Origin: Brachyhypopomus gauderio
Taxonomy: Eukaryota; Chordata; Actinopteri; Gymnotiformes; Hypopomidae
Direction of reading: 5' to 3'
DNA: 64,000 bases
NCBI RefSeq assembly: GCF_052324685.1
Contig: NC_135211.1
Coordinates: forward strand, 7,732,386 to 7,796,385
Shown: positions 1-64,000 of the stretch, piece by piece
Numbering within the stretch: position 1 is the first letter of the stretch
How the letters are laid out: each line of letters begins with the position of its first letter
Notes under the pieces: model-generated
The model's input: the letters and a program-made list of their open reading frames with translations, nothing else
Told to the model about the DNA's origin: nothing
Databases searched by the model: none
Translations under genes and position numbers: made by a program

Positions 1-65
1 TTGTAATGTGCAGGGTGTTAAAAGGCCGGACGATAAAACGTAAGCGTTCATCTACTTATTCAGAA

Positions 66-112
66 TGGCAGGAGAAGAAAGAAGATCAAGTAGTGACATA
101 TCCTGCCAGGAT
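66..112. repeat. Spacer inverted repeat TGGCAGGA / TCCTGCCA
   Basis: Perfect 8-bp arms at 66-73 and 101-108 are separated by 27 nt. The right arm overlaps a second small palindrome, ATCCTGCCAGGAT (100-112), followed by TTTT at 116-119. It is present in nearly every spacer. In the spacers before units 4, 10, 12 and 14 the right arm reads CCTACCAGG, which breaks both palindromes. No function is assigned. Confidence 0.55.
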
Positions 113-236
113 GCCTTTTGCAAAGTGTTGTATGTGACTGTGTGCTGAGGCGAGGTTGAAGAGGAAGCTGCTTTTATCAGACTGGAAATGATGATTCTTG
201 CCTCTTCCAATTACACATAAATTCACCTTCTTTCGT

Positions 237-260
237 GAAAAAGTCGGCAAAGACTTCTTC
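237..260 (+). promoter_or_regulatory. Imperfect hairpin 5 bp upstream of the tRNA
   Basis: GAAAAAGTC (237-245) and GACTTCTTC (252-260) can pair over 8 of 9 positions around the loop GGCAAA. The structure ends 5 bp before the tRNA 5' end and repeats at the same place in most units. In 15 units (23, 25, 27, 29, 34, 36, 42, 47, 52, 57, 62, 70, 75, 80, 82) the right arm reads GTCTTCTTC, losing a pair next to the loop. tRNA genes use internal promoters but upstream sequence modulates them. A regulatory role is inference. Confidence 0.35.
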
Positions 261-272
261 ATAGAGGTAGCG

Positions 273-283
273 TGGCCGAGTGG
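273..283 (+). promoter_or_regulatory. Pol III A box (unit 1; equivalent in every unit)
   Basis: TGGCCGAGTGG, covering tRNA positions 8-19, fits the eukaryotic A-box consensus TRGCNNAGYNGG. It is changed in units 4, 10 and 12 (A14 to T), 14 (A14 to T and G18 to T), 20 (G18 to T), 22 (G10 to A) and 26, 33, 67, 81 (C12 to T and A14 to T). Confidence 0.9.
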
Positions 284-325
284 TCTAAGGCGCTGGATTT
301 AAGCTCCATTCTCTTCGGAGGCGTG

Positions 326-336
326 GGTTCAAATCC
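326..336 (+). promoter_or_regulatory. Pol III B box (unit 1; equivalent in every unit)
   Basis: GGTTCAAATCC matches the B-box consensus GGTTCGANTCC, the TFIIIC binding site, except for A instead of G at tRNA position 57, a purine as required. Eleven units (41, 45, 46, 51, 55, 56, 60, 61, 69, 73, 74) read GGTTCCAATCC, placing a pyrimidine there. Confidence 0.9.
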
Positions 337-354
337 CACCGCTACCAAGTGGAG

Positions 355-358
355 TTTT
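355..358 (+). terminator. Pol III terminator TTTT (unit 1; equivalent in every unit)
   Basis: Four T residues on the coding strand lie 8 nt past the last tRNA base, a standard Pol III stop. The same GGAGTTTTAC context follows all 82 tRNAs at the same distance. Confidence 0.9.
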
Positions 359-445
359 ACAAACACTCACGGTCAGTTGTGCCCCTGCCAAATCACTTGT
401 CTATGTGAAAAGAAGAAAACGAGTAGCGAAAAGAAAGAAGAAGCA

Positions 446-1816: not shown

Positions 1817-1898
1817 GGTAGCGTGGCCGAGTGGTCTAAGGCGCTGGATTTAGGCTCCATTCTCTTCGGAGGCGTGGGTTCAAATCCCACCGCTACCA
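1817..1898 (+). tRNA. tRNA-Leu-TAG: tRNA-Leu(UAG), unit 3
   Basis: The anticodon loop reads TTTAGGC, so the anticodon is TAG (reads CUA/CUN) instead of TAA. The rest is consensus, including the C27-U43 mismatch. This is the anticodon expected for this tRNA body, so it may be the ancestral state or a reversion. TTTT stop at 1906-1909. The only other such copy is unit 9, inside a block duplicate. Confidence 0.9.
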
Positions 1899-6482: not shown

Positions 6483-6564
6483 GGTAGCGTGGCCGAGTGG
6501 TCTAAGGCGCTGGATTTAGGCTCCATTCTCTTCGGAGGCGTGGGTTCAAATCCCACCGCTACCA
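6483..6564 (+). tRNA. tRNA-Leu-TAG: tRNA-Leu(UAG), unit 9
   Basis: Anticodon TAG (loop TTTAGGC), otherwise consensus. It is the +4,666 bp duplicate of unit 3, so the two UAG copies count as one event. TTTT stop at 6572-6575. Confidence 0.9.
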
Positions 6565-8128: not shown

Positions 8129-8228
8129 AGTGGAGTTTTACAAACACTCACGGTCAGTTGTGCCCCTGCCAAATCACTTGTCTATGTGAAAAGAAGAAAA
8201 CGAGTAGCGAAAAGAAAGAAGAAGCAGC

Positions 8229-18996: not shown

Positions 18997-19078
18997 GGTA
19001 GCATGGCCGAGTGGTCTAAGGCGCTGGATTTAAGCTCCATTCTCTTCGGAGGCGTGGGTTCAAATCCCACTGCTACCA
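18997..19078 (+). tRNA. tRNA-Leu-TAA: tRNA-Leu(UAA), unit 25, compensated A7-U66
   Basis: G7 to A together with C66 to T restores a Watson-Crick A7-U66 pair at the base of the acceptor stem. First of ten copies with this double change. TTTT stop at 19086-19089. Confidence 0.9.
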
Positions 19079-19778: not shown

Positions 19779-19860
19779 GGTAGCGTGGCTGTGTGGTCTA
19801 AGGCGCTGCATTTAAGCTCCATTCTCGTTCGAGGCGTGGGTTCAAATCCCACCGCTACCA
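19779..19860 (+). tRNA. tRNA-Leu-TAA: tRNA-Leu(UAA), unit 26, decayed (U12, U14, C30)
   Basis: C12 to T (U12-G23 wobble), A14 to T, G30 to C, and variable arm CTC-GTTC-GAG. The acceptor and T arms are intact. Loss of A14 and the C30-C40 clash make it a likely pseudo-tRNA. TTTT stop at 19868-19871. Copies: units 33, 67 and 81. Confidence 0.65.
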
Positions 19861-33870: not shown

Positions 33871-33952
33871 GGTAGCGTGGCCGAGTGGTCTAAGGCGCTG
33901 GATTTAAGCTCCATTCTCTTCGGAGGCGTGGGTTCAAATCCCACCGCTACCA
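33871..33952 (+). tRNA. tRNA-Leu-TAA: tRNA-Leu(UAA), unit 44, consensus
   Basis: Consensus; third position of an A-type block. TTTT stop at 33960-33963. Confidence 0.92.
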
Positions 33953-34654
33953 AGTGGAGTTTTACAAACACTCACGGTCAGTTGTGCCCCTGCCAAATCA
34001 CTTGTCTATGTGAAAAGAAGAAAACGAGTAGTGAAAAGAAAGAAGAAGCAGCAACTCATCCATCATCAAGTCATCCTTTCCAAGTCCCTTTAAATGCCAT
34101 CTGCAGGGGTTTTAACTTGCTGTTCATATTTTTGTTGCTTAATATTTCATATAGCTAAATGATATGCAAGTCATTAATGACACATAAGCAGCAGCAATCC
34201 ACTCAAGATGGCCCTTTTAATTATCCAAGGAGTTCAAGCTGGTATGTCAAAATGGGAACGGTGCTGTGTCCCTCCAAGAAAACGACTTGATACAAATATG
34301 CTATGTACACTACCAGATTGTCATGTACTCTGAGTCTAAGCTGTGAGAATTCATAGCACACCAATAAACCCATGCTGAAATTGGAACATTTGTAATGTGC
34401 AGGGTGTTAAAAGGCCGGACGATAAAACGTAAGCGTTCATCTACTTATTCAGAATGGCAGGAGAAGAAAGAAGATCAAGTAGTGACATATCCTGCCAGGA
34501 TGCCTTTTGCAAAGTGTTGTATGTGACTGTGTGCTGAGGCGAGGTTGAAGAGGAAGCTGCTTTTATCAGACTGGAAATGATGATTCTTGCCTCTTCCAAT
34601 TCAACATAAATTCACCTTCTTTCGTGAAAAAGTCGGCAAAGACTTCTTCATAGA

Positions 34655-43275: not shown

Positions 43276-43357
43276 GGTAGCGTGGCCGAGTGGTCTAAGG
43301 CGCTGGATTTAAGCTCCATTCTCTTCGGAGGCGTGGGTTCCAATCCCACCGCTACCA
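43276..43357 (+). tRNA. tRNA-Leu-TAA: tRNA-Leu(UAA), unit 56, C57, hybrid spacer
   Basis: C57 tRNA with the same recombinant upstream spacer as unit 46. TTTT stop at 43365-43368. Confidence 0.83.
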
Positions 43358-44059
43358 AGTGGAGTTTTACAAACACTCACGGTCAGTTGTGCCCCTGCCA
43401 AATCACTTGTCTATGTGAAAAGAAGAAAACGAGTAGTGAAAAGAAAGAAGAAGCAGCAACTCATCCATCATCAAGTCATCCTTTCCAAGTCCCTTTAAAT
43501 GCCATCTGCAGGGGTTTTAACTTGCTGTTCATATTTTTGTTGCTTAATATTTCATATAGCTAAATGATATGCAAGTCATTAATGACACATAAGCAGCAGC
43601 AATCCACTCAAGATGGGCCTTTTAATTATCCAAGGAGTTCAAGCTGGTATGTCAAAATGGGAACGGTGCTGTGTCCCTCCAAGAAAACGACTTGATACAA
43701 ATATGCTATGTACACTACCAGATTGTCATGTACTCTGAGTCTAAGCTGTGAGAATTCATAGCACACCAATAAACCCATGCTGAAATTGGAACATTTGTAA
43801 TGTGCAGGGTGTTAAAAGGCCGGACGATAAAACGTAAGCGTTCATCTACTTATTCAGAATGGCAGGAGAAGAAAGAAGATCAAGTAGTGACATATCCTGC
43901 CAGGATGCCTTTTGCAAAGTGTTGTATGTGACTGTGTACTGAGGCGAGGTTGAAGAGGAAGCTGCTTTTATGAGACTGGAAATGATGATTCTTGCCTCTT
44001 CCAATTCAACATAAATTCACCTTCTTTCGTGAAAAAGTCGGCAAAGTCTTCTTCATAGA

Positions 44060-44141
44060 GGTAGCATGGCCGAGTGGTCTAAGGCGCTGGATTTAAGCTC
44101 CATTCTCTTCGGAGGCGTGGGTTCAAATCCCACTGCTACCA
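44060..44141 (+). tRNA. tRNA-Leu-TAA: tRNA-Leu(UAA), unit 57, compensated A7-U66
   Basis: Opens the third A block. The downstream spacer has AAAATGAGAACG, shared with units 62 and 75 only. TTTT stop at 44149-44152. Confidence 0.9.
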
Positions 44142-44841
44142 AGTGGAGTTTTACAAACACCCACGGTCAGTTGTGCCCCTGCCAAATCACTTGTCTATGT
44201 GAAAAGAAGAAAACGAGTAGCGAAAAGAAAGAAGAAGCAGCAACTCATCCATCATCGTCATCCTTTCCAAGTCCCTTTAAATGCCATCTGCAGGGGTTTT
44301 AACTTGCTGTTCATATTTTTGTTGCTTAATATTTCATATAGCTAAATGATATGCAAGTCATTAATGACACATAAGCAGCAGCAATCCACTCAAGATGGGC
44401 CTTTTAATTATCCAAGGAGTTCAAGCTGGTATGTCAAAATGAGAACGGTGCTGTGTCCCTCCAAGAAAACGACTTGATACAAATATGCTATGTACACTAC
44501 CAGATTGTCATGTACTCTGAGTCTAAGCTGTGAGAATTCATAGCACACCAATAAACCCATGCTGAAATTGGAACATTTGTAATGTGCAGGGTGTTAAAAG
44601 GCCGGACGATAAAACGTAAGCGTTCATCTACTTATTCAGAATGGCAGGAGAAGAAAGAAGATCAAGTAGTGACATATCCTGCCAGGATGCCTTTTGCAAA
44701 GTGTTGTATGTGACTGTGTGCTGAGGCGAGGTTGAAGAGGAAGCTGCTTTTATCAGACTGGAAATGATGATTCTTGCCTCTTCCAATTCAACATAAATTC
44801 ACCTTCTTTCTTGAAAAAGTCGGCAAAGACTTCTTCATAGA

Positions 44842-44923
44842 GGTAGCGTGGCCGAGTGGTCTAAGGCGCTGGATTTAAGCTCCATTCTCTTCGGAGGCGT
44901 GGGTTCAAATCCCACCGCTACAA
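44842..44923 (+). tRNA. tRNA-Leu-TAA: tRNA-Leu(UAA), unit 58, A72
   Basis: G1-A72 mismatch; copy of unit 53 at +3,918 bp. TTTT stop at 44931-44934. Confidence 0.8.
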
Positions 44924-45625
44924 AGTGGAGTTTTACAAACACTCACGGTCAGTTGTGCCCCTGCCAAATCACTTGTCTATGTGAAAAGAAGAAAACGAGT
45001 AGCGAAAAGAAAGAAGAAGCAGCAACTCATCCATCATCAAGTCATCCTTTCCAAGTCCCTTTAAATGCCATCTGCAGGGGTTTTAACTTGCTGTTCATAT
45101 TTTTGTTGCTTAATATTTCATATAGCTAAATGATATGCAAGTCATTTATGACACATAAGCAGCAGCAATCCACTCAAGATGGGCCTTTTAATTATCCAAG
45201 GAGTTCAAGCAGGTATGTCAAAATGGGAACGGTGCTGTGTCCCTCCAAGAAAACGACTTGATACAAGTATGCTATGTACACTACCAGATTGTCATGTACT
45301 CTGAGTCTCAGCTGTGAGAATTCATAGCACACCAATAAACCCATGCTGAAATTGGAACATTTGTAATGTGCAGGGTGTTAAAAGGCCGGACGATAAAACG
45401 TAAGCGTTCATCTACTTATTCAGAATGGCAGGAGAAGAAAGAAGATCAAGTAGTGACATATCCTGCCAGGATGCCTTTTGCAAAGTGTTGTATGTGACTG
45501 TGTGCTGAGGCGAGGTTGAAGAGGAAGCTGCTTTTATCAGACTGGAAATGATGATTCTTGCCTCTTCCAATTCAACATAAATTCACCTTCTTTCGTGAAA
45601 AAGTCGGCAAAGACTTCTTTATAGA

Positions 45626-45707
45626 GGTAGCGTGGCCGAGTGGTCTAAGGCGCTGGATTTAAGCTCCATTCTCTTCGGAGGCGTGGGTTCAAATCCCACC
45701 GCTACCA
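45626..45707 (+). tRNA. tRNA-Leu-TAA: tRNA-Leu(UAA), unit 59, consensus
   Basis: Consensus; copy of unit 54. TTTT stop at 45715-45718. Confidence 0.92.
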
Positions 45708-46409
45708 AGTGGAGTTTTACAAACACTCACGGTCAGTTGTGCCCCTGCCAAATCACTTGTCTATGTGAAAAGAAGAAAACGAGTAGTGAAAAGAAAGAAG
45801 AAGCAGCAACTCATCCATCATCAAGTCATCCTTTCCAAGTCCCTTTAAATGCCATCTGCAGGGGTTTTAACTTGCTGTTCATATTTTTGTTGCTTAATAT
45901 TTCATATAGCTAAATGATATGCAAGTCATTAATGACACATAAGCAGCAGCAATCCACTCAAGATGGCCCTTTTAATTATCCAAGGAGTTCAAGCTGGTAT
46001 GTCAAAATGGGAACGGTGCTGTGTCCCTCCAAGAAAACGACTTGATACAAATATGCTATGTACACTACCAGATTGTCATGTACTCTGAGTCTAAGCTGTG
46101 AGAATTCATAGCACACCAATAAACCCATGCTGAAATTGGAACATTTGTAATGTGCAGGGTGTTAAAAGGCCGGACGATAAAACGTAAGCGTTCATCTACT
46201 TATTCAGAATGGCAGGAGAAGAAAGAAGATCAAGTAGTGACATATCCTGCCAGGATGCCTTTTGCAAAGTGTTGTATGTGACTGTGTGCTGAGGCGAGGT
46301 TGAAGAGGAAGCTGCTTTTATCAGACTGGAAATGATGATTCTTGCCTCTTCCAATTCAACATAAATTCACCTTCTTTCGTGAAAAAGTCGGCAAAGACTT
46401 CTTCATAGA

Positions 46410-46491
46410 GGTAGCGTGGCCGAGTGGTCTAAGGCGCTGGATTTAAGCTCCATTCTCTTCGGAGGCGTGGGTTCCAATCCCACTGCTACCA
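46410..46491 (+). tRNA. tRNA-Leu-TAA: tRNA-Leu(UAA), unit 60, C57 with G7-U66
   Basis: Copy of unit 55. TTTT stop at 46499-46502. Confidence 0.82.
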
Positions 46492-47193
46492 AGTGGAGTT
46501 TTACAAACACTCACGGTCAGTTGTGCCCCTGCCAAATCACTTGTCTATGTGAAAAGAAGAAAACGAGTAGTGAAAAGAAAGAAGAAGCAGCAACTCATCC
46601 ATCATCAAGTCATCCTTTCCAAGTCCCTTTAAATGCCATCTGCAGGGGTTTTAACTTGCTGTTCATATTTTTGTTGCTTAATATTTCATATAGCTAAATG
46701 ATATGCAAGTCATTAATGACACATAAGCAGCAGCAATCCACTCAAGATGGGCCTTTTAATTATCCAAGGAGTTCAAGCTGGTATGTCAAAATGGGAACGG
46801 TGCTGTGTCCCTCCAAGAAAACGACTTGATACAAATATGCTATGTACACTACCAGATTGTCATGTACTCTGAGTCTAAGCTGTGAGAATTCATAGCACAC
46901 CAATAAACCCATGCTGAAATTGGAACATTTGTAATGTGCAGGGTGTTAAAAGGCCGGACGATAAAACGTAAGCGTTCATCTACTTATTCAGAATGGCAGG
47001 AGAAGAAAGAAGATCAAGTAGTGACATATCCTGCCAGGATGCCTTTTGCAAAGTGTTGTATGTGACTGTGTACTGAGGCGAGGTTGAAGAGGAAGCTGCT
47101 TTTATGAGACTGGAAATGATGATTCTTGCCTCTTCCAATTCAACATAAATTCACCTTCTTTCGTGAAAAAGTCGGCAAAGACTTCTTCATAGA

Positions 47194-47275
47194 GGTAGCG
47201 TGGCCGAGTGGTCTAAGGCGCTGGATTTAAGCTCCATTCTCTTCGGAGGCGTGGGTTCCAATCCCACCGCTACCA
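47194..47275 (+). tRNA. tRNA-Leu-TAA: tRNA-Leu(UAA), unit 61, C57, hybrid spacer
   Basis: Copy of unit 56. TTTT stop at 47283-47286. Confidence 0.83.
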
Positions 47276-47977
47276 AGTGGAGTTTTACAAACACTCACGG
47301 TCAGTTGTGCCCCTGCCAAATCACTTGTCTATGTGAAAAGAAGAAAACGAGTAGTGAAAAGAAAGAAGAAGCAGCAACTCATCCATCATCAAGTCATCCT
47401 TTCCAAGTCCCTTTAAATGCCATCTGCAGGGGTTTTAACTTGCTGTTCATATTTTTGTTGCTTAATATTTCATATAGCTAAATGATATGCAAGTCATTAA
47501 TGACACATAAGCAGCAGCAATCCACTCAAGATGGGCCTTTTAATTATCCAAGGAGTTCAAGCTGGTATGTCAAAATGGGAACGGTGCTGTGTCCCTCCAA
47601 GAAAACGACTTGATACAAATATGCTATGTACACTACCAGATTGTCATGTACTCTGAGTCTAAGCTGTGAGAATTCATAGCACACCAATAAACCCATGCTG
47701 AAATTGGAACATTTGTAATGTGCAGGGTGTTAAAAGGCCGGACGATAAAACGTAAGCGTTCATCTACTTATTCAGAATGGCAGGAGAAGAAAGAAGATCA
47801 AGTAGTGACATATCCTGCCAGGATGCCTTTTGCAAAGTGTTGTATGTGACTGTGTACTGAGGCGAGGTTGAAGAGGAAGCTGCTTTTATGAGACTGGAAA
47901 TGATGATTCTTGCCTCTTCCAATTCAACATAAATTCACCTTCTTTCGTGAAAAAGTCGGCAAAGTCTTCTTCATAGA

Positions 47978-48059
47978 GGTAGCATGGCCGAGTGGTCTAA
48001 GGCGCTGGATTTAAGCTCCATTCTCTTCGGAGGCGTGGGTTCAAATCCCACTGCTACCA
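47978..48059 (+). tRNA. tRNA-Leu-TAA: tRNA-Leu(UAA), unit 62, compensated A7-U66
   Basis: Opens the expanded B block; 783 bp to unit 63. TTTT stop at 48067-48070. Confidence 0.9.
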
Positions 48060-48760
48060 AGTGGAGTTTTACAAACACCCACGGTCAGTTGTGCCCCTGC
48101 CAAATCACTTGTCTATGTGAAAAGAAGAAAACGAGTAGCGAAAAGAAAGAAGAAGCAGCAACTCATCCATCATCGTCATCCTTTCCAAGTCCCTTTAAAT
48201 GCCATCTGCAGGGGTTTTAACTTGCTGTTCATATTTTTGTTGCTTAATATTTCATATAGCTAAATGATATGCAAGTCATTAATGACACATAAGCAGCAGC
48301 AATCCACTCAAGATGGGCCTTTTAATTATCCAAGGAGTTCAAGCTGGTATGTCAAAATGAGAACGGTGCTGTGTCCCTCCAAGAAAACGACTTGATACAA
48401 ATATGCTATGTACACTACCAGATTGTCATGTACTCTGAGTCTAAGCTGTGAGAATTCATAGCACACCAATAAACCCATGCTGAAATTGGAACATTTGTAA
48501 TGTGCAGGGTGTTAAAAGGCCGGACGATAAAACGTAAGCGTTCATCTACTTATTCAGAATGGCAGGAGAAGAAAGAAGATCAAGTAGTGACATATCCTGC
48601 CAGGATGCCTTTTGCAAAGTGTTGTATGTGACTGTGTGCATAAGGCGACGTTGAAGACGAAGCTGCTTTTATCAGACTGGAAATGATGATTCTTGCCTCT
48701 TCCAATTCAACATAAATTTACCTTCTTTCGTGAAAAAGTCGGCAAAGACTTCTTCATAGA

Positions 48761-48842
48761 GGTAGCGTGGCCGAGTGGTCTAAGGCGCTGGATTTAAGCT
48801 CCATTCTCTTCGGAGGCGTGGGTTCAAATCCCACCGCTACCA
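48761..48842 (+). tRNA. tRNA-Leu-TAA: tRNA-Leu(UAA), unit 63, consensus
   Basis: Consensus after the GTGCATAAGG signature. Its downstream GAGTAGCG differs from unit 48 (GAGTAGTG) but matches unit 76. TTTT stop at 48850-48853. Confidence 0.92.
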
Positions 48843-49544
48843 AGTGGAGTTTTACAAACACTCACGGTCAGTTGTGCCCCTGCCAAATCACTTGTCTATG
48901 TGAAAAGAAGAAAACGAGTAGCGAAAAGAAAGAAGAAGCAGCAACTCATCCATCATCAAGTCATCCTTTCCAAGTCCCTTTAAATGCCATCTGCAGGGGT
49001 TTTAACTTGCTGTTCATATTTTTGTTGCTTAATATTTCATATAGCTAAATGATATGCAAGTCATTTATGACACATAAGCAGCAGCAATCCACTCAAGATG
49101 GGCCTTTTAATTATCCAAGGAGTTCAAGCAGGTATGTCAAAATGGGAACGGTGCTGTGTCCCTCCAAGAAAACGACTTGATACAAGTATGCTATGTACAC
49201 TACCAGATTGTCATGTACTCTGAGTCTAAGCTGTGAGAATTCATAGCACACCAATAAACCCATGCTGAAATTGGAACATTTGTAACGTGCAGGGTGTTAA
49301 AAGGCCGGACGATAAAACGTAAGCGTTCATCTACTTATTCAGAATGGCAGGAGAAGAAAGAAGATCAAGTAGTGACATATCCTGCCAGGATGCCTTTTGC
49401 AAAGTGTTGTATGTGACTGTGTGCTGAGGCGAGGTTGAAGAGGAAGCTGCTTTTATCAGACTGGAAATGATGATTCTTGCCTCTTCCAATTCAACATAAA
49501 TTCACCTTCTTTCGTGAAAAAGTCGGCAAAGACTTCTTCATAGA

Positions 49545-49626
49545 GGTAGCGTGGCCGAGTGGTCTAAGGCGCTGGATTTAAGCTCCATTCTCGTCGGAGG
49601 CGTGGGTTCAAATCCCACCGCTACCA
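49545..49626 (+). tRNA. tRNA-Leu-TAA: tRNA-Leu(UAA), unit 64, GTCG variable loop
   Basis: As unit 49. The spacer adds GGAACAGTG, shared with unit 77. TTTT stop at 49634-49637. Confidence 0.9.
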
Positions 49627-50328
49627 AGTGGAGTTTTACAAACACTCACGGTCAGTTGTGCCCCTGCCAAATCACTTGTCTATGTGAAAAGAAGAAAACG
49701 AGTAGCGAAAAGAAAGAAGAAGCAGCAACTCATCCATCATCAAGTCATCCTTTCCAAGTCCCTTTAAATGCCATCTGCAGGGGTTTTAACTTGCTGTTCA
49801 TATTTTTGTTGCTTAATATTTCATATAGCTAAATGATATGCAAGTCATTTATGACACATAAGCAGCAGCAATCCACTCAAGATGGGCCTTTTAATTATCC
49901 AAGGAGTTCAAGCAGGTATGTCAAAATGGGAACAGTGCTGTGTCCCTCCAAGAAAACAACTTGATACAAGTATGCTATGTACACTACCAGATTGTCATGT
50001 ACTCTGAGTCTAAGCTGTGAGAATTCATAGCACACCAATAAACCCATGCTGAAATTGGAACATTTGTAATGTGCAGGGTGTTAAAAGGCCGGACGATAAA
50101 ACGTAAGCGTTCATCTACTTATTCAGAATGGCAGGAGAAGAAAGAAGATCAAGTAGTGACATATCCTGCCAGGATGCCTTTTGCAAAGTGTTGTATGTGA
50201 CTGTGTGCTGAGGCGAGGTTGAAGAGGAAGCTGCTTTTATCAGACTGGAAATGATGATTCTTGCCTCTTCCAATTCAACATAAATTCACCTTCTTTCGTG
50301 AAAAAGTCGGCAAAGACTTCTTTATAGA

Positions 50329-50410
50329 GGTAGCGTGGCCGAGTGGTCTAAGGCGCTGGATTTAAGCTCCATTCTCTTCGGAGGCGTGGGTTCAAATCCC
50401 ACCGCTACCA
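50329..50410 (+). tRNA. tRNA-Leu-TAA: tRNA-Leu(UAA), unit 65, consensus
   Basis: Consensus with the unit 21 spacer markers. TTTT stop at 50418-50421. Confidence 0.92.
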
Positions 50411-51112
50411 AGTGGAGTTTTACAAACACTCACGGTCAGTTGTGCCCCTGCCAAATCACTTGTCTATGTGAAAAGAAGAAAACGAGTAGTGAAAAGAAAG
50501 AAGAAGCAGCAACTCATCCATCATCAAGTCATCCTTTCCAAGTCCCTTTAAATGCCATCTGCAGGGGTTTTAACTTGCTGTTCATATTTTTGTTGCTTAA
50601 TATTTCATATAGCTAAATGATATGCAAGTCATTTATGACACATAAGCAGCAGCAATCCACTCAAGATGGGCCTTTTATTTATCCAAGGAGTTCAAGCATG
50701 TATGTCAAAATGGGAACGGTGCTGTGTCCCTCCAAGAAAACGACTTGATACAAGTATGCTATGTACACTACCAGATTGTCATGTACTCTGAGTCTAAGCT
50801 GTGAGAATTCATAGCACACCAATAAACCCATGCTCAAATTGGAACATTTGTAACGTGCAGGGTGTTAAAAGGCCGGACGATAAAACGTAAGCGTTCATCT
50901 ACTTATTCAGAATGGCAGGAGAAGAAAGAAGATCACGTAGTGACATATCCTGCCAGGATGCCTTTTGCAAAGTGTTGTATGTGACTGTGTGCTGAGGCGA
51001 GGTTGAAGAGGAAACTGCTTTTATCAGACTGGAAATGATGATTCTTGCCTCTTCCAATTCAACATAAATTCACCTTCTTTCGTGAAAAAGTCGGCAAAGA
51101 CTTCTTCATAGA

Positions 51113-51194
51113 GGTAGCGTGGCCGAGTGGTCTAAGGCGCTGGATTTAAGCTCCATTCTCTTCGGAGGCGTGGGTTCAAATCCCACCGCTACCA
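51113..51194 (+). tRNA. tRNA-Leu-TAA: tRNA-Leu(UAA), unit 66, consensus
   Basis: Consensus T loop (A57), although it sits where unit 51 has C57. It starts the three-unit insertion of this block. TTTT stop at 51202-51205. Confidence 0.92.
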
Positions 51195-51896
51195 AGTGGA
51201 GTTTTACAAACACTCACGGTCAGTTGTGCCCCTGCCAAATCACTTGTCTATGTGAAAAGAAGAAAACGAGTAGCGAAAAGAAAGAAGAAGCAGCAACTCA
51301 TCCATCATCAAGTCATCCTTTCCAAGTCCCTTTAAATGCCATCTGCAGGGGTTTTAACTTGCTGTTCATATTTTTGTTGCTTAATATTTCATATAGCTAA
51401 ATGATATGCAAGTCATTAATGACACATAAGCAGCAGCAATCCACTCAAGATGGCCCTTTTAATTATCCAAGGAGTTCAAGCTGGTATGTCAAAATGGGAA
51501 CGGTGCTGTGTCCCTCCAAGAAAACGACTTGATACAAATATGCTATGTACACTACCAGATTGTCATGTACTCTGAGTCTAAGCTGTGAGAATTCATAGCA
51601 CACCAATAAACCCATGCTGAAATTGGAACATTTGTAATGTGCAGGGTGTTAAAAGGCCGGACGATAAAACGTAAGCGTTCATCTACTTATTCAGAATGGC
51701 AGGAGAAGAAAGAAGATCAAGTAGTGACATATCCTGCCAGGATGCCTTTTGCAATGTGTTGTATGTGACTGTGTGCTGAGGCGAGGTTGAAGAGGAAGCT
51801 GCTTTTATCAGACTGGAAATGATGATTCTTGCCTCTTCCAATTCAACATAAATTCACCTTCTTTCGTGAAAAAGTCGGCAAAGACTTCTTCATAGA

Positions 51897-53464: not shown

Positions 53465-53546
53465 GGTAGCGTGGCCGAGTGGTCTAAGGCGCTGGATTTA
53501 AGCTCCATTCTCTTCGGAGGCGTGGGTTCCAATCCCACCGCTACCA
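53465..53546 (+). tRNA. tRNA-Leu-TAA: tRNA-Leu(UAA), unit 69, C57
   Basis: C57; copy of unit 51 at +14,107 bp. TTTT stop at 53554-53557. Confidence 0.83.
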
Positions 53547-54248
53547 AGTGGAGTTTTACAAACACTCACGGTCAGTTGTGCCCCTGCCAAATCACTTGTC
53601 TATGTGAAAAGAAGAAAACGAGTAGTGAAAAGAAAGAAGAAGCAGCAACTCATCCATCATCAAGTCATCCTTTCCAAGTCCCTTTAAATGCCATCTGCAG
53701 GGGTTTTAACTTGCTGTTCATATTTTTGTTGCTTAATATTTCATATAGCTAAATGATATGCAAGTCATTAATGACACATAAGCAGCAGCAATCCACTCAA
53801 GATGGGCCTTTTAATTATCCAAGGAGTTCAAGCTGGTATGTCAAAATGGGAACGGTGCTGTGTCCCTCCAAGAAAACGACTTGATACAAATATGCTATGT
53901 ACACTACCAGATTGTCATGTACTCTGAGTCTAAGCTGTGAGAATTCATAGCACACCAATAAACCCATGCTGAAATTGGAACATTTGTAATGTGCAGGGTG
54001 TTAAAAGGCCGGACGATAAAACGTAAGCGTTCATCTACTTATTCAGAATGGCAGGAGAAGAAAGAAGATCAAGTAGTGACATATCCTGCCAGGATGCCTT
54101 TTGCAAAGTGTTGTATGTGACTGTGTACTGAGGCGAGGTTGAAGAGGAAGCTGCTTTTATGAGACTGGAAATGATGATTCTTGCCTCTTCCAATTCAACA
54201 TAAATTCACCTTCTTTCGTGAAAAAGTCGGCAAAGTCTTCTTCATAGA

Positions 54249-54330
54249 GGTAGCATGGCCGAGTGGTCTAAGGCGCTGGATTTAAGCTCCATTCTCTTCG
54301 GAGGCGTGGGTTCAAATCCCACTGCTACCA
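54249..54330 (+). tRNA. tRNA-Leu-TAA: tRNA-Leu(UAA), unit 70, compensated A7-U66
   Basis: Opens the fourth A block. TTTT stop at 54338-54341. Confidence 0.9.
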
Positions 54331-55030
54331 AGTGGAGTTTTACAAACACCCACGGTCAGTTGTGCCCCTGCCAAATCACTTGTCTATGTGAAAAGAAGAA
54401 AACGAGTAGCGAAAAGAAAGAAGAAGCAGCAACTCATCCATCATCGTCATCCTTTCCAAGTCCCTTTAAATGCCATCTGCAGGGGTTTTAACTTGCTGTT
54501 CATATTTTTGTTGCTTAATATTTCATATAGCTAAATGATATGCAAGTCATTAATGACACATAAGCAGCAGCAATCCACTCAAGATGGGCCTTTTAATTAT
54601 CCAAGGAGTTCAAGCTGGTATGTCAAAATGGGAACGGTGCTGTGTCCCTCCAAGAAAACGACTTGATACAAATATGCTATGTACACTACCAGATTGTCAT
54701 GTACTCTGAGTCTAAGCTGTGAGAATTCATAGCACACCAATAAACCCATGCTGAAATTGGAACATTTGTAATGTGCAGGGTGTTAAAAGGCCGGACGATA
54801 AAACGTAAGCGTTCATCTACTTATTCAGAATGGCAGGAGAAGAAAGAAGATCAAGTAGTGACATATCCTGCCAGGATGCCTTTTGCAAAGTGTTGTATGT
54901 GACTGTGTGCTGAGGCGAGGTTGAAGAGGAAGCTGCTTTTATCAGACTGGAAATGATGATTCTTGCCTCTTCCAATTCAACATAAATTCACCTTCTTTCT
55001 TGAAAAAGTCGGCAAAGACTTCTTCATAGA

Positions 55031-55112
55031 GGTAGCGTGGCCGAGTGGTCTAAGGCGCTGGATTTAAGCTCCATTCTCTTCGGAGGCGTGGGTTCAAATC
55101 CCACCGCTACAA
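55031..55112 (+). tRNA. tRNA-Leu-TAA: tRNA-Leu(UAA), unit 71, A72
   Basis: G1-A72 mismatch; A-block position two. TTTT stop at 55120-55123. Confidence 0.8.
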
Positions 55113-55814
55113 AGTGGAGTTTTACAAACACTCACGGTCAGTTGTGCCCCTGCCAAATCACTTGTCTATGTGAAAAGAAGAAAACGAGTAGCGAAAAGAA
55201 AGAAGAAGCAGCAACTCATCCATCATCAAGTCATCCTTTCCAAGTCCCTTTAAATGCCATCTGCAGGGGTTTTAACTTGCTGTTCATATTTTTGTTGCTT
55301 AATATTTCATATAGCTAAATGATATGCAAGTCATTTATGACACATAAGCAGCAGCAATCCACTCAAGATGGGCCTTTTAATTATCCAAGGAGTTCAAGCA
55401 GGTATGTCAAAATGGGAACGGTGCTGTGTCCCTCCAAGAAAACGACTTGATACAAGTATGCTATGTACACTACCAGATTGTCATGTACTCTGAGTCTCAG
55501 CTGTGAGAATTCATAGCACACCAATAAACCCATGCTGAAATTGGAACATTTGTAATGTGCAGGGTGTTAAAAGGCCGGACGATAAAACGTAAGCGTTCAT
55601 CTACTTATTCAGAATGGCAGGAGAAGAAAGAAGATCAAGTAGTGACATATCCTGCCAGGATGCCTTTTGCAAAGTGTTGTATGTGACTGTGTGCTGAGGC
55701 GAGGTTGAAGAGGAAGCTGCTTTTATCAGACTGGAAATGATGATTCTTGCCTCTTCCAATTCAACATAAATTCACCTTCTTTCGTGAAAAAGTCGGCAAA
55801 GACTTCTTTATAGA

Positions 55815-55896
55815 GGTAGCGTGGCCGAGTGGTCTAAGGCGCTGGATTTAAGCTCCATTCTCTTCGGAGGCGTGGGTTCAAATCCCACCGCTACCA
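55815..55896 (+). tRNA. tRNA-Leu-TAA: tRNA-Leu(UAA), unit 72, consensus
   Basis: Consensus; A-block position three. TTTT stop at 55904-55907. Confidence 0.92.
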
Positions 55897-56598
55897 AGTG
55901 GAGTTTTACAAACACTCACGGTCAGTTGTGCCCCTGCCAAATCACTTGTCTATGTGAAAAGAAGAAAACGAGTAGTGAAAAGAAAGAAGAAGCAGCAACT
56001 CATCCATCATCAAGTCATCCTTTCCAAGTCCCTTTAAATGCCATCTGCAGGGGTTTTAACTTGCTGTTCATATTTTTGTTGCTTAATATTTCATATAGCT
56101 AAATGATATGCAAGTCATTAATGACACATAAGCAGCAGCAATCCACTCAAGATGGCCCTTTTAATTATCCAAGGAGTTCAAGCTGGTATGTCAAAATGGG
56201 AACGGTGCTGTGTCCCTCCAAGAAAACGACTTGATACAAATATGCTATGTACACTACCAGATTGTCATGTACTCTGAGTCTAAGCTGTGAGAATTCATAG
56301 CACACCAATAAACCCATGCTGAAATTGGAACATTTGTAATGTGCAGGGTGTTAAAAGGCCGGACGATAAAACGTAAGCGTTCATCTACTTATTCAGAATG
56401 GCAGGAGAAGAAAGAAGATCAAGTAGTGACATATCCTGCCAGGATGCCTTTTGCAAAGTGTTGTATATGACTGTGTGCTGAGGCGAGGTTGAAGAGGAAG
56501 CTGCTTTTATCAGACTGGAAATGATGATTCTTGCCTCTTCCAATTCAACATAAATTCACCTTCTTTCGTGAAAAAGTCGGCAAAGACTTCTTCATAGA

Positions 56599-56680
56599 GG
56601 TAGCGTGGCCGAGTGGTCTAAGGCGCTGGATTTAAGCTCCGTTCTCTTCGGAGGCGTGGGTTCCAATCCCACCGCTACCA
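56599..56680 (+). tRNA. tRNA-Leu-TAA: tRNA-Leu(UAA), unit 73, C57 and G42
   Basis: A42 to G gives a U28-G42 wobble next to the C27-U43 mismatch, plus C57. The preceding spacer has the private GTATATGAC. TTTT stop at 56688-56691. Confidence 0.8.
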
Positions 56681-57382
56681 AGTGGAGTTTTACAAACACT
56701 CACGGTCAGTTGTGCCCCTGCCAAATCACTTGTCTATGTGAAAAGAAGAAAACGAGTAGTGAAAAGAAAGAAGAAGCAGCAACTCATCCATCATCAAGTC
56801 ATCCTTTCCAAGTCCCTTTAAATGCCATCTGCAGGGGTTTTAACTTGCTGTTCATATTTTTGTTGCTTAATATTTCATATAGCTAAATGATATGCAAGTC
56901 ATTAATGACACATAAGCAGCAGCAATCCACTCAAGATGGGCCTTTTAATTATCCAAGGAGTTCAAGCTGGTATGTCAAAATGGGAACGGTGCTGTGTCCC
57001 TCCAAGAAAACGACTTGATACAAATATGCTATGTACACTACCAGATTGTCATGTACTCTGAGTCTAAGCTGTGAGAATTCATAGCACACCAATAAACCCA
57101 TGCTGAAATTGGAACATTTGTAATGTGCAGGGTGTTAAAAGGCCGGACGATAAAACGTAAGCGTTCATCTACTTATTCAGAATGGCAGGAGAAGAAAGAA
57201 GATCAAGTAGTGACATATCCTGCCAGGATGCCTTTTGCAAAGTGTTGTATGTGACTGTGTACTGAGGCGAGGTTGAAGAGGAAGCTGCTTTTATGAGACT
57301 GGAAATGATGATTCTTGCCTCTTCCAATTCAACATAAATTCACCTTCTTTCGTGAAAAAGTCGGCAAAGACTTCTTCATAGA

Positions 57383-57464
57383 GGTAGCGTGGCCGAGTGG
57401 TCTAAGGCGCTGGATTTAAGCTCCATTCTCTTCGGAGGCGTGGGTTCCAATCCCACCGCTACCA
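57383..57464 (+). tRNA. tRNA-Leu-TAA: tRNA-Leu(UAA), unit 74, C57, hybrid spacer
   Basis: Copy of units 46, 56 and 61. TTTT stop at 57472-57475. Confidence 0.83.
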
Positions 57465-58166
57465 AGTGGAGTTTTACAAACACTCACGGTCAGTTGTGCC
57501 CCTGCCAAATCACTTGTCTATGTGAAAAGAAGAAAACGAGTAGTGAAAAGAAAGAAGAAGCAGCAACTCATCCATCATCAAGTCATCCTTTCCAAGTCCC
57601 TTTAAATGCCATCTGCAGGGGTTTTAACTTGCTGTTCATATTTTTGTTGCTTAATATTTCATATAGCTAAATGATATGCAAGTCATTAATGACACATAAG
57701 CAGCAGCAATCCACTCAAGATGGGCCTTTTAATTATCCAAGGAGTTCAAGCTGGTATGTCAAAATGGGAACGGTGCTGTGTCCCTCCAAGAAAACGACTT
57801 GATACAAATATGCTATGTACACTACCAGATTGTCATGTACTCTGAGTCTAAGCTGTGAGAATTCATAGCACACCAATAAACCCATGCTGAAATTGGAACA
57901 TTTGTAATGTGCAGGGTGTTAAAAGGCCGGACGATAAAACGTAAGCGTTCATCTACTTATTCAGAATGGCAGGAGAAGAAAGAAGATCAAGTAGTGACAT
58001 ATCCTGCCAGGATGCCTTTTGCAAAGTGTTGTATGTGACTGTGTACTGAGGCGAGGTTGAAGAGGAAGCTGCTTTTATGAGACTGGAAATGATGATTCTT
58101 GCCTCTTCCAATTCAACATAAATTCACCTTCTTTCGTGAAAAAGTCGGCAAAGTCTTCTTCATAGA

Positions 58167-58248
58167 GGTAGCATGGCCGAGTGGTCTAAGGCGCTGGATT
58201 TAAGCTCCATTCTCTTCGGAGGCGTGGGTTCAAATCCCACTGCTACCA
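58167..58248 (+). tRNA. tRNA-Leu-TAA: tRNA-Leu(UAA), unit 75, compensated A7-U66
   Basis: Opens the third B block; copy of unit 62 at +10,189 bp. TTTT stop at 58256-58259. Confidence 0.9.
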
Positions 58249-58949
58249 AGTGGAGTTTTACAAACACCCACGGTCAGTTGTGCCCCTGCCAAATCACTTG
58301 TCTATGTGAAAAGAAGAAAACGAGTAGCGAAAAGAAAGAAGAAGCAGCAACTCATCCATCATCGTCATCCTTTCCAAGTCCCTTTAAATGCCATCTGCAG
58401 GGGTTTTAACTTGCTGTTCATATTTTTGTTGCTTAATATTTCATATAGCTAAATGATATGCAAGTCATTAATGACACATAAGCAGCAGCAATCCACTCAA
58501 GATGGGCCTTTTAATTATCCAAGGAGTTCAAGCTGGTATGTCAAAATGAGAACGGTGCTGTGTCCCTCCAAGAAAACGACTTGATACAAATATGCTATGT
58601 ACACTACCAGATTGTCATGTACTCTGAGTCTAAGCTGTGAGAATTCATAGCACACCAATAAACCCATGCTGAAATTGGAACATTTGTAATGTGCAGGGTG
58701 TTAAAAGGCCGGACGATAAAACGTAAGCGTTCATCTACTTATTCAGAATGGCAGGAGAAGAAAGAAGATCAAGTAGTGACATATCCTGCCAGGATGCCTT
58801 TTGCAAAGTGTTGTATGTGACTGTGTGCATAAGGCGACGTTGAAGACGAAGCTGCTTTTATCAGACTGGAAATGATGATTCTTGCCTCTTCCAATTCAAC
58901 ATAAATTTACCTTCTTTCGTGAAAAAGTCGGCAAAGACTTCTTCATAGA

Positions 58950-59031
58950 GGTAGCGTGGCCGAGTGGTCTAAGGCGCTGGATTTAAGCTCCATTCTCTTC
59001 GGAGGCGTGGGTTCAAATCCCACCGCTACCA
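58950..59031 (+). tRNA. tRNA-Leu-TAA: tRNA-Leu(UAA), unit 76, consensus
   Basis: Consensus; copy of unit 63. TTTT stop at 59039-59042. Confidence 0.92.
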
Positions 59032-59733
59032 AGTGGAGTTTTACAAACACTCACGGTCAGTTGTGCCCCTGCCAAATCACTTGTCTATGTGAAAAGAAGA
59101 AAACGAGTAGCGAAAAGAAAGAAGAAGCAGCAACTCATCCATCATCAAGTCATCCTTTCCAAGTCCCTTTAAATGCCATCTGCAGGGGTTTTAACTTGCT
59201 GTTCATATTTTTGTTGCTTAATATTTCATATAGCTAAATGATATGCAAGTCATTTATGACACATAAGCAGCAGCAATCCACTCAAGATGGGCCTTTTAAT
59301 TATCCAAGGAGTTCAAGCAGGTATGTCAAAATGGGAACGGTGCTGTGTCCCTCCAAGAAAACGACTTGATACAAGTATGCTATGTACACTACCAGATTGT
59401 CATGTACTCTGAGTCTAAGCTGTGAGAATTCATAGCACACCAATAAACCCATGCTGAAATTGGAACATTTGTAACGTGCAGGGTGTTAAAAGGCCGGACG
59501 ATAAAACGTAAGCGTTCATCTACTTATTCAGAATGGCAGGAGAAGAAAGAAGATCAAGTAGTGACATATCCTGCCAGGATGCCTTTTGCAAAGTGTTGTA
59601 TGTGACTGTGTGCTGAGGCGAGGTTGAAGAGGAAGCTGCTTTTATCAGACTGGAAATGATGATTCTTGCCTCTTCCAATTCAACATAAATTCACCTTCTT
59701 TCGTGAAAAAGTCGGCAAAGACTTCTTCATAGA

Positions 59734-59815
59734 GGTAGCGTGGCCGAGTGGTCTAAGGCGCTGGATTTAAGCTCCATTCTCGTCGGAGGCGTGGGTTCAA
59801 ATCCCACCGCTACCA
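59734..59815 (+). tRNA. tRNA-Leu-TAA: tRNA-Leu(UAA), unit 77, GTCG variable loop
   Basis: Copy of unit 64. TTTT stop at 59823-59826. Confidence 0.9.
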
Positions 59816-60517
59816 AGTGGAGTTTTACAAACACTCACGGTCAGTTGTGCCCCTGCCAAATCACTTGTCTATGTGAAAAGAAGAAAACGAGTAGCGAAAA
59901 GAAAGAAGAAGCAGCAACTCATCCATCATCAAGTCATCCTTTCCAAGTCCCTTTAAATGCCATCTGCAGGGGTTTTAACTTGCTGTTCATATTTTTGTTG
60001 CTTAATATTTCATATAGCTAAATGATATGCAAGTCATTTATGACACATAAGCAGCAGCAATCCACTCAAGATGGGCCTTTTAATTATCCAAGGAGTTCAA
60101 GCAGGTATGTCAAAATGGGAACAGTGCTGTGTCCCTCCAAGAAAACAACTTGATACAAGTATGCTATGTACACTACCAGATTGTCATGTACTCTGAGTCT
60201 AAGCTGTGAGAATTCATAGCACACCAATAAACCCATGCTGAAATTGGAACATTTGTAATGTGCAGGGTGTTAAAAGGCCGGACGATAAAACGTAAGCGTT
60301 CATCTACTTATTCAGAATGGCAGGAGAAGAAAGAAGATCAAGTAGTGACATATCCTGCCAGGATGCCTTTTGCAAAGTGTTGTATGTGACTGTGTGCTGA
60401 GGCGAGGTTGAAGAGGAAGCTGCTTTTATCAGACTGGAAATGATGATTCTTGCCTCTTCCAATTCAACATAAATTCACCTTCTTTCGTGAAAAAGTCGGC
60501 AAAGACTTCTTTATAGA

Positions 60518-60599
60518 GGTAGCGTGGCCGAGTGGTCTAAGGCGCTGGATTTAAGCTCCATTCTCTTCGGAGGCGTGGGTTCAAATCCCACCGCTACCA
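60518..60599 (+). tRNA. tRNA-Leu-TAA: tRNA-Leu(UAA), unit 78, consensus
   Basis: Copy of unit 65. TTTT stop at 60607-60610. Confidence 0.92.
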
Positions 60600-61301
60600 A
60601 GTGGAGTTTTACAAACACTCACGGTCAGTTGTGCCCCTGCCAAATCACTTGTCTATGTGAAAAGAAGAAAACGAGTAGTGAAAAGAAAGAAGAAGCAGCA
60701 ACTCATCCATCATCAAGTCATCCTTTCCAAGTCCCTTTAAATGCCATCTGCAGGGGTTTTAACTTGCTGTTCATATTTTTGTTGCTTAATATTTCATATA
60801 GCTAAATGATATGCAAGTCATTTATGACACATAAGCAGCAGCAATCCACTCAAGATGGGCCTTTTATTTATCCAAGGAGTTCAAGCATGTATGTCAAAAT
60901 GGGAACGGTGCTGTGTCCCTCCAAGAAAACGACTTGATACAAGTATGCTATGTACACTACCAGATTGTCATGTACTCTGAGTCTAAGCTGTGAGAATTCA
61001 TAGCACACCAATAAACCCATGCTCAAATTGGAACATTTGTAACGTGCAGGGTGTTAAAAGGCCGGACGATAAAACGTAAGCGTTCATCTACTTATTCAGA
61101 ATGGCAGGAGAAGAAAGAAGATCACGTAGTGACATATCCTGCCAGGATGCCTTTTGCAAAGTGTTGTATGTGACTGTGTGCTGAGGCGAGGTTGAAGAGG
61201 AAACTGCTTTTATCAGACTGGAAATGATGATTCTTGCCTCTTCCAATTCAACATAAATTCACCTTCTTTCGTGAAAAAGTCGGCAAAGACTTCTTCATAG
61301 A

Positions 61302-61383
61302 GGTAGCGTGGCCGAGTGGTCTAAGGCGCTGGATTTAAGCTCCATTCTCTTCGGAGGCGTGGGTTCAAATCCCACCGCTACCA
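61302..61383 (+). tRNA. tRNA-Leu-TAA: tRNA-Leu(UAA), unit 79, consensus
   Basis: Copy of unit 66, including the downstream GATGGCCC variant. TTTT stop at 61391-61394. Confidence 0.92.
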
Positions 61384-62085
61384 AGTGGAGTTTTACAAAC
61401 ACTCACGGTCAGTTGTGCCCCTGCCAAATCACTTGTCTATGTGAAAAGAAGAAAACGAGTAGCGAAAAGAAAGAAGAAGCAGCAACTCATCCATCATCAA
61501 GTCATCCTTTCCAAGTCCCTTTAAATGCCATCTGCAGGGGTTTTAACTTGCTGTTCATATTTTTGTTGCTTAATATTTCATATAGCTAAATGATATGCAA
61601 GTCATTAATGACACATAAGCAGCAGCAATCCACTCAAGATGGCCCTTTTAATTATCCAAGGAGTTCAAGCTGGTATGTCAAAATGGGAACGGTGCTGTGT
61701 CCCTCCAAGAAAACGACTTGATACAAATATGCTATGTACACTACCAGATTGTCATGTACTCTGAGTCTAAGCTGTGAGAATTCATAGCACACCAATAAAC
61801 CCATGCTGAAATTGGAACATTTGTAATGTGCAGGGTGTTAAAAGGCCGGACGATAAAACGTAAGCGTTCATCTACTTATTCAGAATGGCAGGAGAAGAAA
61901 GAAGATCAAGTAGTGACATATCCTGCCAGGATGCCTTTTGCAAAGTGTTGTATGTGACTGTGTGCTGAGGCGAGGTTGAAGAGGAAGCTGCTTTTATCAG
62001 ACTGGAAATGATGATTCTTGCCTCTTCCAATTCAACATAAATTCACCTTCTTTCGTGAAAAAGTCGGCAAAGTCTTCTTCATAGA

Positions 62086-62167
62086 GGTAGCGTGGCCGAG
62101 TGGTCTAAGGCGCTGGATTTAAGCTCTGTTCTCTTCGGAGGCGTGGGTTCAAATCCCACCGCTACCA
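62086..62167 (+). tRNA. tRNA-Leu-TAA: tRNA-Leu(UAA), unit 80, U41 and G42
   Basis: The 3' anticodon stem reads TCTGT, giving G29-U41 and U28-G42 wobbles beside C27-U43, so the stem is weak. The spacer has GCCAAGTCAC and TTAACTGGC as in unit 32. TTTT stop at 62175-62178. Confidence 0.78.
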
Positions 62168-62867
62168 AGTGGAGTTTTACAAACACTCACGGTCAGTTGT
62201 GCCCCTGCCAAGTCACTTGTCTATGTGAAAAGAAGAAAACGAGTAGCGAAAAGAAAGAAGAAGCAGCAACTCATCCAACATCGTCATCCTTTCCAAGTCC
62301 CTTTAAATGCCATCTGCAGGGGTTTTAACTGGCTGTTCATATTTTTGTTGCTTAATATTTCATATAGCTAAATGATATGCAAGTCATTAATGACACATAA
62401 GCAGCAGCAATCCACTCAAGATGGGCCTTTTAATTATCCAAGGAGTTCAAGCTGGTATGTCAAAATGGGAACGGTGCTGTGTCCCTCCAAGAAAACGACT
62501 TGATACAAATATGCTATGTACACTACCAGATTGTCATGTACTCTGAGTCTAAGCTGTGAGAATTCATAGCACACCAATAAACCCATGCTGAAATTGGAAC
62601 ATTTGTAATGTGCAGGGTGTTAAAAGGCCGGACGATAAAACGTAAGCGTTCATCTACTTATTCAGAATGGCAGGAGAAGAAAGAAGATCAAGTAGTGACA
62701 TATCCTGCCAGGATGCCTTTTGCAATGTGTTGTATGTGACTGTGTGCTGAGGCGAGGTTGAAGAGGAAGCTGCTTTTATCAGACTGGAAATGATGATTCT
62801 TGCCTCTTCCAATTCAACATAAATTCACCTTCTTTCGTGAAAAAGTCGGCAAAGACTTCTTCATAGA

Positions 62868-62949
62868 GGTAGCGTGGCTGTGTGGTCTAAGGCGCTGCAT
62901 TTAAGCTCCATTCTCGTTCGAGGCGTGGGTTCAAATCCCACCGCTACCA
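62868..62949 (+). tRNA. tRNA-Leu-TAA: tRNA-Leu(UAA), unit 81, decayed (U12, U14, C30)
   Basis: Fourth copy of the unit 26 tRNA, preceded by GCAATGTG as in units 33 and 67. TTTT stop at 62957-62960. Confidence 0.65.
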
Positions 62950-63651
62950 AGTGGAGTTTTACAAACACTCACGGTCAGTTGTGCCCCTGCCAAATCACTT
63001 GTCTATGTGAAAAGAAGAAAACGAGTAGCGAAAAGAAAGAAGAAGCAGCAACTCATCCATCATCAAGTCATCCTTTCCAAGTCCCTTTAAATGCCATCTG
63101 CAGGGGTTTTAACTTGCTGTTCATATTTTTGTTGCTTAATATTTCATATAGCTAAATGATATGCAAGTCATTAATGACACATAAGCAGCAGCAATCCACT
63201 CAAGATGGCCCTTTTAATTATCCAAGGAGTTCAAGCTGGTATGTCAAAATGGGAACGGTGCTGTGTCCCTCCAAGAAAACGACTTGATACAAATATGCTA
63301 TGTACACTACCAGATTGTCATGTACTCTGAGTCTAAGCTGTGAGAATTCATAGCACACCAATAAACCCATGCTGAAATTGGAACATTTGTAATGTGCAGG
63401 GTGTTAAAAGGCCGGACGATAAAACGTAAGCGTTCATCTACTTATTCAGAATGGCAGGAGAAGAAAGAAGATCAAGTAGTGACATATCCTGCCAGGATGC
63501 CTTTTGCAAAGTGTTGTATGTGACTGTGTGCTGAGGCGAGGTTGAAGAGGAAGCTGCTTTTATGAGACTGGAAATGATGATTCTTGCCTCTTCCAATTCA
63601 ACATAAATTCACCTTCTTTCGTGAAAAAGTCGGCAAAGTCTTCTTCATAGA

Positions 63652-63733
63652 GGTAGCGTGGCCGAGTGGTCTAAGGCGCTGGATTTAAGCTCCATTCTCT
63701 TCGGAGGCGTGGGTTCAAATCCCACTGCTACCA
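63652..63733 (+). tRNA. tRNA-Leu-TAA: tRNA-Leu(UAA), unit 82, G7-U66
   Basis: G7-U66 wobble without A7, although the upstream spacer has TTATGAGAC and AAAGTCTTC like the A7-U66 class. TTTT stop at 63741-63744. The window ends within its spacer. Confidence 0.9.
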
Positions 63734-64000
63734 AGTGGAGTTTTACAAACACTCACGGTCAGTTGTGCCCCTGCCAAATCACTTGTCTATGTGAAAAGAA
63801 GAAAACGAGTAGCGAAAAGAAAGAAGAAGCAGCAACTCATCCATCATCGTCATCCTTTCCAAGTCCCTTTAAATGCCATCTGCAGGGGTTTTAACTTGCT
63901 GTTCATATTTTTGTTGCTTAATATTTCATATAGCTAAATGATATGCAAGTCATTAATGACACATAAGCAGCAGCAATCCACTCAAGATGGGCCTTTTAAT
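63734..64000 (+). other. Partial spacer at the window end
   Basis: First 267 bp after unit 82: terminator, purine-rich tract, 782-type CATC allele, start of the AT-rich spacer. No gene seen. Confidence 0.85.

Follow-up and report, generated by a model that had tools for sequence, protein, structure and literature searches.

Does an extreme number of tRNA gene copies render a service to translation, or does it reflect the expansion of a repeat? The question is raised by a stretch of 64,000 nt from the fish Brachyhypopomus gauderio (NCBI RefSeq assembly GCF_052324685.1, contig NC_135211.1, positions 7,732,386 to 7,796,385, forward strand), hereafter the window, which is filled by a tandem array of tRNA-Leu genes. 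The reading favoured here, probable rather than assured, is that of a tRNA-gene macrosatellite that expands itself under concerted evolution and carries its tRNA genes along, not that of 82 required genes, the tRNA genes being partly competent for transcription by RNA polymerase III (Pol III) and probably mostly silenced. With the window, the known tandem tRNA arrays gain a large, nearly single-anticodon and apparently anticodon-shifted case. Its purity is unusual; no pure tRNA-Leu array of comparable size is described among the literature matches listed, which is not to claim that none is in print. Because it combines one isoacceptor, an apparent anticodon shift that serves as a marker and 24 distinguishable tRNAs, the array offers a clean test of which copies are used, and where. 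As a caution, such tRNA copies should not be counted in codon-adaptation indices.

Layout of the array

ARAGORN predicts 82 tRNA-Leu genes in the window, all on the forward strand between 266 and 63733, one per unit, with no other tRNA species among its predictions. Rfam family RF00005 matches the identical 82 places at 43.8–62.8 bits (cut-off 29), and the Rfam scan of the window yields no further RNA family above its own cut-off. The 81 intervals from tRNA start to tRNA start measure 784 bp (47 intervals), 782 bp (26), 769 bp (4), 783 bp (3) and 781 bp (1). The initial annotation, made from the letters alone, had announced a head-to-tail array of 82 copies over at least 64 kb and free of interruption. 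This is borne out, all 81 intervals falling within 769–784 bp; since the window begins and stops inside units, the array exceeds 64 kb and runs past both ends. The unit length of ∼782 bp that it gave suits the 26 intervals of that size, whereas the modal length is 784 bp. It had also expected one EcoRI site (GAATTC) in most units, and 77 of the 81 indeed have one while four have none. Purity, its further claim, holds for the amino acid and for the 80 copies with anticodon TAA, but two copies (units 3 and 9) read TAG and the 82 genes fall into 24 distinct tRNA sequences.

Pairwise identity among the 81 units averages 98.3% (minimum 95.9%), so that chance is excluded as the source of the array, and the GC content is flat across the window (0.416–0.422 in 4-kb steps). 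A tRNA gene in every head-to-tail unit, as in a tRNA-gene tandem repeat or macrosatellite, and the high unit identity with concerted evolution of a macrosatellite are both found.

Variation of the tRNA and its spacer

Functional tRNA genes are expected to be more conserved than their flanks. Here, the reverse is seen: 18 of 82 sites vary in the tRNA versus 75 of 702 in the spacer (Fisher p = 0.006; p values are nominal throughout, several tests having been made). The tRNA copies share a pairwise identity of 97.0% and the spacers one of 98.8% (96.7% versus 98.8% among the 51 distinct units). When every possible 82-base stretch of the unit is considered (784 in all), the tRNA comes 14th in diversity and among the first 30 in the number of variable sites. 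At spacer rates, with CpG accounted for, 12.8 substitution alleles would be expected in the tRNA, and 20 are observed; 10 of these lie in stems (11.3 expected, P = 0.34), which is no depletion. The gene that is better conserved than its flank, as in a functional nuclear tRNA gene set, is not what the array presents, and selection per single copy appears weak rather than absent. Transcription-associated mutation is not supported, because the variability of the gene flanks, taken at 20, 40, 60 and 100 bp, does not exceed that of the remaining spacer (p = 0.60, 0.70, 0.87 and 1.0).

Integrity of the tRNA copies

Twenty-three stem pairs were scored, of which one, 28:44, is a C–T mismatch in all 82 copies. 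The commonest tRNA sequence keeps the other 22 pairs, which are complete in 62 copies, and 20 copies break at least one of them besides the shared mismatch. The A box TGGCCGAGTGG is kept in 72 copies and the consensus B box in 71; all 22 pairs and both boxes are kept together in 51. By its sequence, each unit has a putative Pol III promoter inside the gene, along with a terminator-like stretch. The anticodon-stem pair 31:41 is altered to C–C in nine copies, four of which bear six changes. A T-loop variant, GGTTCCAATCC, replaces the B-box purine in 11 copies (e.g. 34655–34736) and is itself amplified.

The preserved B boxes would also suit a role in chromatin, where the tRNA genes would act through TFIIIC binding as a boundary or in the nucleation of heterochromatin; in humans, the tRNA tandem repeat at 1q23.3 is bound by CTCF and has been implicated as a boundary (PMC4041453). 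Against such a role, the window consists entirely of array, with no flank outside it, and no relative of the spacer was found: one spacer stretch had no exact-pattern match in the collections genome_contigs and viral_contigs, which hold bacteria, archaea and viruses only and say little. Two leucine-tRNA patterns had no exact match in these collections either, with the same limit. A chromatin role is considered very improbable.

Three roles had been proposed for the array in the initial annotation, namely a special translation demand, a function in chromatin and a runaway amplification of a tRNA-bearing satellite. The last is favoured because variation is higher in the tRNA than in the spacer, 20 of the 82 copies break pairs and blocks of units are duplicated; a special demand keeps a slight chance because 51 copies look intact.

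Block duplications and array history

Units were compared at lags 1–59, block partners being runs in which each unit pair differs in at most three columns. Near-identical runs occur at lags 4, 5, 6, 7, 10, 13, 15, 18 and 28, among others, the longest covering 11 units. Units 41–50 are duplicated as units 56–65 (lag 15) and 69–78 (lag 28), and further block duplications involve units 51–56 at lag 5 and units 26–31 at lag 7. Only 51 of the 81 units are distinct, leaving 30 redundant copies, and the longest exact repeat, at 46485 and 56674, spans 5,270 bp. Such redundancy is also what an assembly artefact would produce, the real array being much shorter or its blocks having been duplicated in assembly. 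Block copies, however, differ at scattered sites, as resolved long reads would yield, and ordinary long reads exceed the longest exact repeat in length; we give this explanation very little credit.

Variants are shuffled between units: 59 biallelic columns form 1711 pairs, of which 184 fail the four-gamete test, and in a spacer tree the A7/T75 tRNA type is found on several spacer lineages. Block duplications and shuffled variants together point to unequal exchange and conversion. Head-to-tail amplification by these processes, acting on blocks of one to many units, would hold the units ∼98% alike, with weak selection on individual copies. Mean identity in successive sets of 20 units is, from left to right, 98.4% (units 1–20), 98.7%, 99.0% and 98.7%, so that the left part is slightly more diverse.

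CpG sites and silencing

Places with a CpG in any unit are variable in 24 of 29 cases, versus 17 of 45 GpC places chosen likewise (p = 0.00025); for transitions only, the figures are 15 of 29 versus 10 of 45 (p = 0.012). Some of the 29 places are new CpGs in few units and not losses. In the spacer, the observed-to-expected ratio of CpG is 0.42, with an excess of TpG and CpA, and the CpGs within the tRNA are affected as well (6 of 9 versus 9 of 20 in the spacer, small numbers). These hotspots fit, as indirect evidence read from the sequence, germline methylation that extends over the entire unit and takes in the gene. Probably, then, the array is methylated at CpG in the germ line and mostly silent in body cells, and intact copies could be transcribed upon derepression. 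Precedents exist: tRNA genes in large clusters on zebrafish chromosomes 4, 8 and 3 are near-completely methylated, and tRNA copy number in zebrafish is uncorrelated with tRNA level (PMC11574265), while the Ser/Tyr array of Arabidopsis is silent in most tissues (PMC12308677).

An array silent in body cells may nonetheless be transcribed in oocytes, where it would stock the egg with tRNA in the manner of amplified maternal 5S rRNA genes. On zebrafish chromosome 4, most tRNA genes lie in Region-2 beside the maternal genes for 5S and small nuclear RNA (snRNA), and the authors of that study hypothesise that these tRNA genes are maternal too (PMC11075544); the 51 copies that retain all scored pairs and both boxes agree with this. 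A single-isoacceptor array, however, would provide leucine tRNA only, and a maternal source sits badly with a tRNA that varies more than its spacer. We regard this source, the main rival of the macrosatellite reading, as unlikely, though worth keeping in view.

Points against the favoured reading

Several points weigh against a macrosatellite with tRNA genes that are merely carried along and mostly silenced. A TTTT stretch follows the tRNA at +8 in all 82 copies, and a leucine anticodon is likewise kept in all 82. Outside CpG, the excess of variable sites in the tRNA (12 of 70 versus 65 of 678 in the spacer) gives only p = 0.06, so that the excess is partly due to CpG. Alleles that break a pair on their own are depleted, with 5 of 20 versus 9.3 expected under the spacer-rate null (P = 0.031). 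The acceptor pair 7:75 is kept by the paired change G7A and C75T, both of them CpG transitions; the two changes occur together in 10 copies (units 25, 29, 36, 42, 47, 52, 57, 62, 70 and 75), while C75T without G7A (G–U) occurs in 14 further copies and G7A without C75T (A–C) in none. Finally, a signature of methylation is no proof of silence, because in root-tip cells the Ser/Tyr array of Arabidopsis becomes active again although it is highly methylated (PMC12308677).

The depletion of pair-breaking changes, like the intact boxes and structure of the 51 copies, would also suit an ordinary functional amplification that answers the need of some tissue to decode UUA/UUG. When the Arabidopsis Ser/Tyr array was deleted, a transgenic glycoprotein rich in Ser, Tyr and Pro was altered in root-tip cells (PMC12308677). 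Yet in the present array the tRNA varies more than the rest of the unit, and an altered haplotype with a broken 31:41 pair has itself been amplified to nine copies. Such an amplification for decoding has, in our judgement, only a slight chance of being correct.

Origin of the tRNA body and anticodon

Over its 37 5′ nucleotides, the commonest array tRNA differs from a mouse Leu-TAG fragment (PMC11551137) at two places only, index 16 in the D-loop and index 37, where the anticodon has its third base (index numbers are positions in the 82-nt tRNA gene); for the two TAG copies, index 16 is the sole difference. Fragments from an osteosarcoma study, labelled tRNA-Leu-TAG-1-1 (PMC8366061), and from an arsenite study, labelled LeuAAG (PMC6237853), are identical to the mouse fragment over 35 and 31 5′ nucleotides, respectively. 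The 5′ part therefore belongs to the Leu-TAG/AAG type. Across the 82 copies, the number of differences from the 37-nt mouse fragment is one (2 copies), two (57), three (14), four (4) or five (5). The usual vertebrate Leu-TAA gene probably has a body different from that of Leu-TAG; a literature search on this point gave human Ser-TGA.

Because the 37 5′ nucleotides match the Leu-TAG fragment save two bases, the array tRNA looks like a Leu-TAG gene that was shifted to TAA and then amplified. A Leu-TAG gene with ∼0.7 kb of flank would have gained a change of the third anticodon base, with leucine retained. A shift at this base is unusual, since 39 of 44 isoacceptor shifts hit the first anticodon base (PMC3923123), and where anticodon remoldings of primates and flies are young, they are mostly judged to sit in pseudogenes (PMC4981973). 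Should the leucine tRNA shifted from CUN to UUR have been amplified as a germline- or egg-specific array, it might shift leucine decoding or flood the egg with leucine tRNA or its fragments in early development. If true, this array would be a single-isoacceptor counterpart of the maternal 5S rRNA genes, but we judge the proposal improbable. The TAG of units 3 and 9 is possibly the ancestral anticodon retained, or else a back-change. In the spacer tree (46 distinct spacers; midpoint root only, and the units recombine), both group with other left-hand units. They stand on the left side of the window, where units are slightly more diverse.

Comparison with known tRNA arrays

The human 1q23.3 tRNA variable-number tandem repeat resembles the array as a tandem macrosatellite with tRNA genes in every unit, 98% unit identity and 9–43 units per allele; unlike it, the human repeat has a GC-rich unit of 7.3 kb with more than one tRNA gene, against 0.78 kb, 42% GC and one tRNA-Leu here (PMC4041453). 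The Ser/Tyr/Tyr array on Arabidopsis chromosome 1 is likewise tandem (27 units over almost 40 kb), silent in most tissues and composed of major and minor sequences with tRNA-like copies (13 of 54 clustered Tyr genes), but it belongs to a plant and its units hold three tRNA genes for two amino acids (PMC12308677, PMC10701932). In the tRNA-Cys cluster of Arabidopsis chromosome 5, a single isoacceptor is likewise present once per short unit (0.4 kb), and the number of units varies with the ecotype; this cluster, however, counts four units in the reference genome and is reported to have Helitron features (PMC10701932).

Zebrafish shares very high-copy tRNA genes in methylated, repetitive DNA, chiefly on chromosome 4, and some isodecoders present in its egg derive from repeats (PMC11417395, PMC11574265, PMC11075544), but neighbouring tRNA pairs are there mostly of different amino acids (PMC2888827). 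The statement of the initial annotation that most animal tRNA clusters mix isotypes agrees with zebrafish and the clawed frog, but not with drosophilids (PMC2888827). Isoacceptor anticodon shifts or remoldings known elsewhere (PMC3923123, PMC4981973) offer a parallel in so far as the array tRNA seems to join the body of one leucine isoacceptor to the anticodon of another; in contrast to the first-base shifts that prevail in PMC3923123, the array displays an apparent third-base shift in a gene that was massively amplified.

Features of the window and the unit

Table 1. Positions in the window of the array, of representative units and tRNA copies, and of the longest duplicated block
Feature	Position	Strand	Remarks
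Tandem array	1..64000	+	Uninterrupted, head-to-tail; 81 complete tRNA-to-tRNA units and partial units at each end
Commonest tRNA sequence	266..347	+	23 of 82 copies; anticodon TAA; A box TGGCCGAGTGG, B box GGTTCAAATCC
TTTT stretch	355..358	+	Pol III terminator-like; starts 8 nt past the tRNA
tRNA-Leu, unit 3	1817..1898	+	Anticodon TAG
tRNA-Leu, unit 9	6483..6564	+	Anticodon TAG; unit identical to unit 3
tRNA of unit 25	18997..19078	+	Example of paired change G7A and C75T (acceptor stem G–C to A–U)
Most altered tRNA haplotype	19779..19860	+	Units 26, 33, 67 and 81; six changes, A box changed, 31:41 broken; 43.8 bits
Unit 44	33871..34654	+	Modal 784 bp; tRNA-Leu(TAA) with commonest tRNA sequence and ∼702 bp spacer
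11-unit block	43276..51896	+	Units 56–66; repeated at lag 13
Second copy of 11-unit block	53465..62085	+	Units 69–79; each at most three columns from its partner

Tandem Repeats Finder lists nothing in the window, the longest period searched being 500, which puts the ∼0.78-kb unit out of its reach. Within one unit (4150–4931), the only internal repeats found are a 21-nt pair at 76% and a single inverted pair of 14 nt. Fourteen open reading frames of at least 40 aa, called with bacterial start codons in 30000–31600 only, overlap that interval, including a frame of 93 aa through the tRNA; no coding claim is drawn from them. A gap of 13 bp in a short CATC-rich stretch is confined to units 1, 5, 7 and 11 of the 81 (starts 266, 3381, 4932 and 8047), all at the left end, and a 2-bp gap adjoining this site occurs in 33 of the 81 units.

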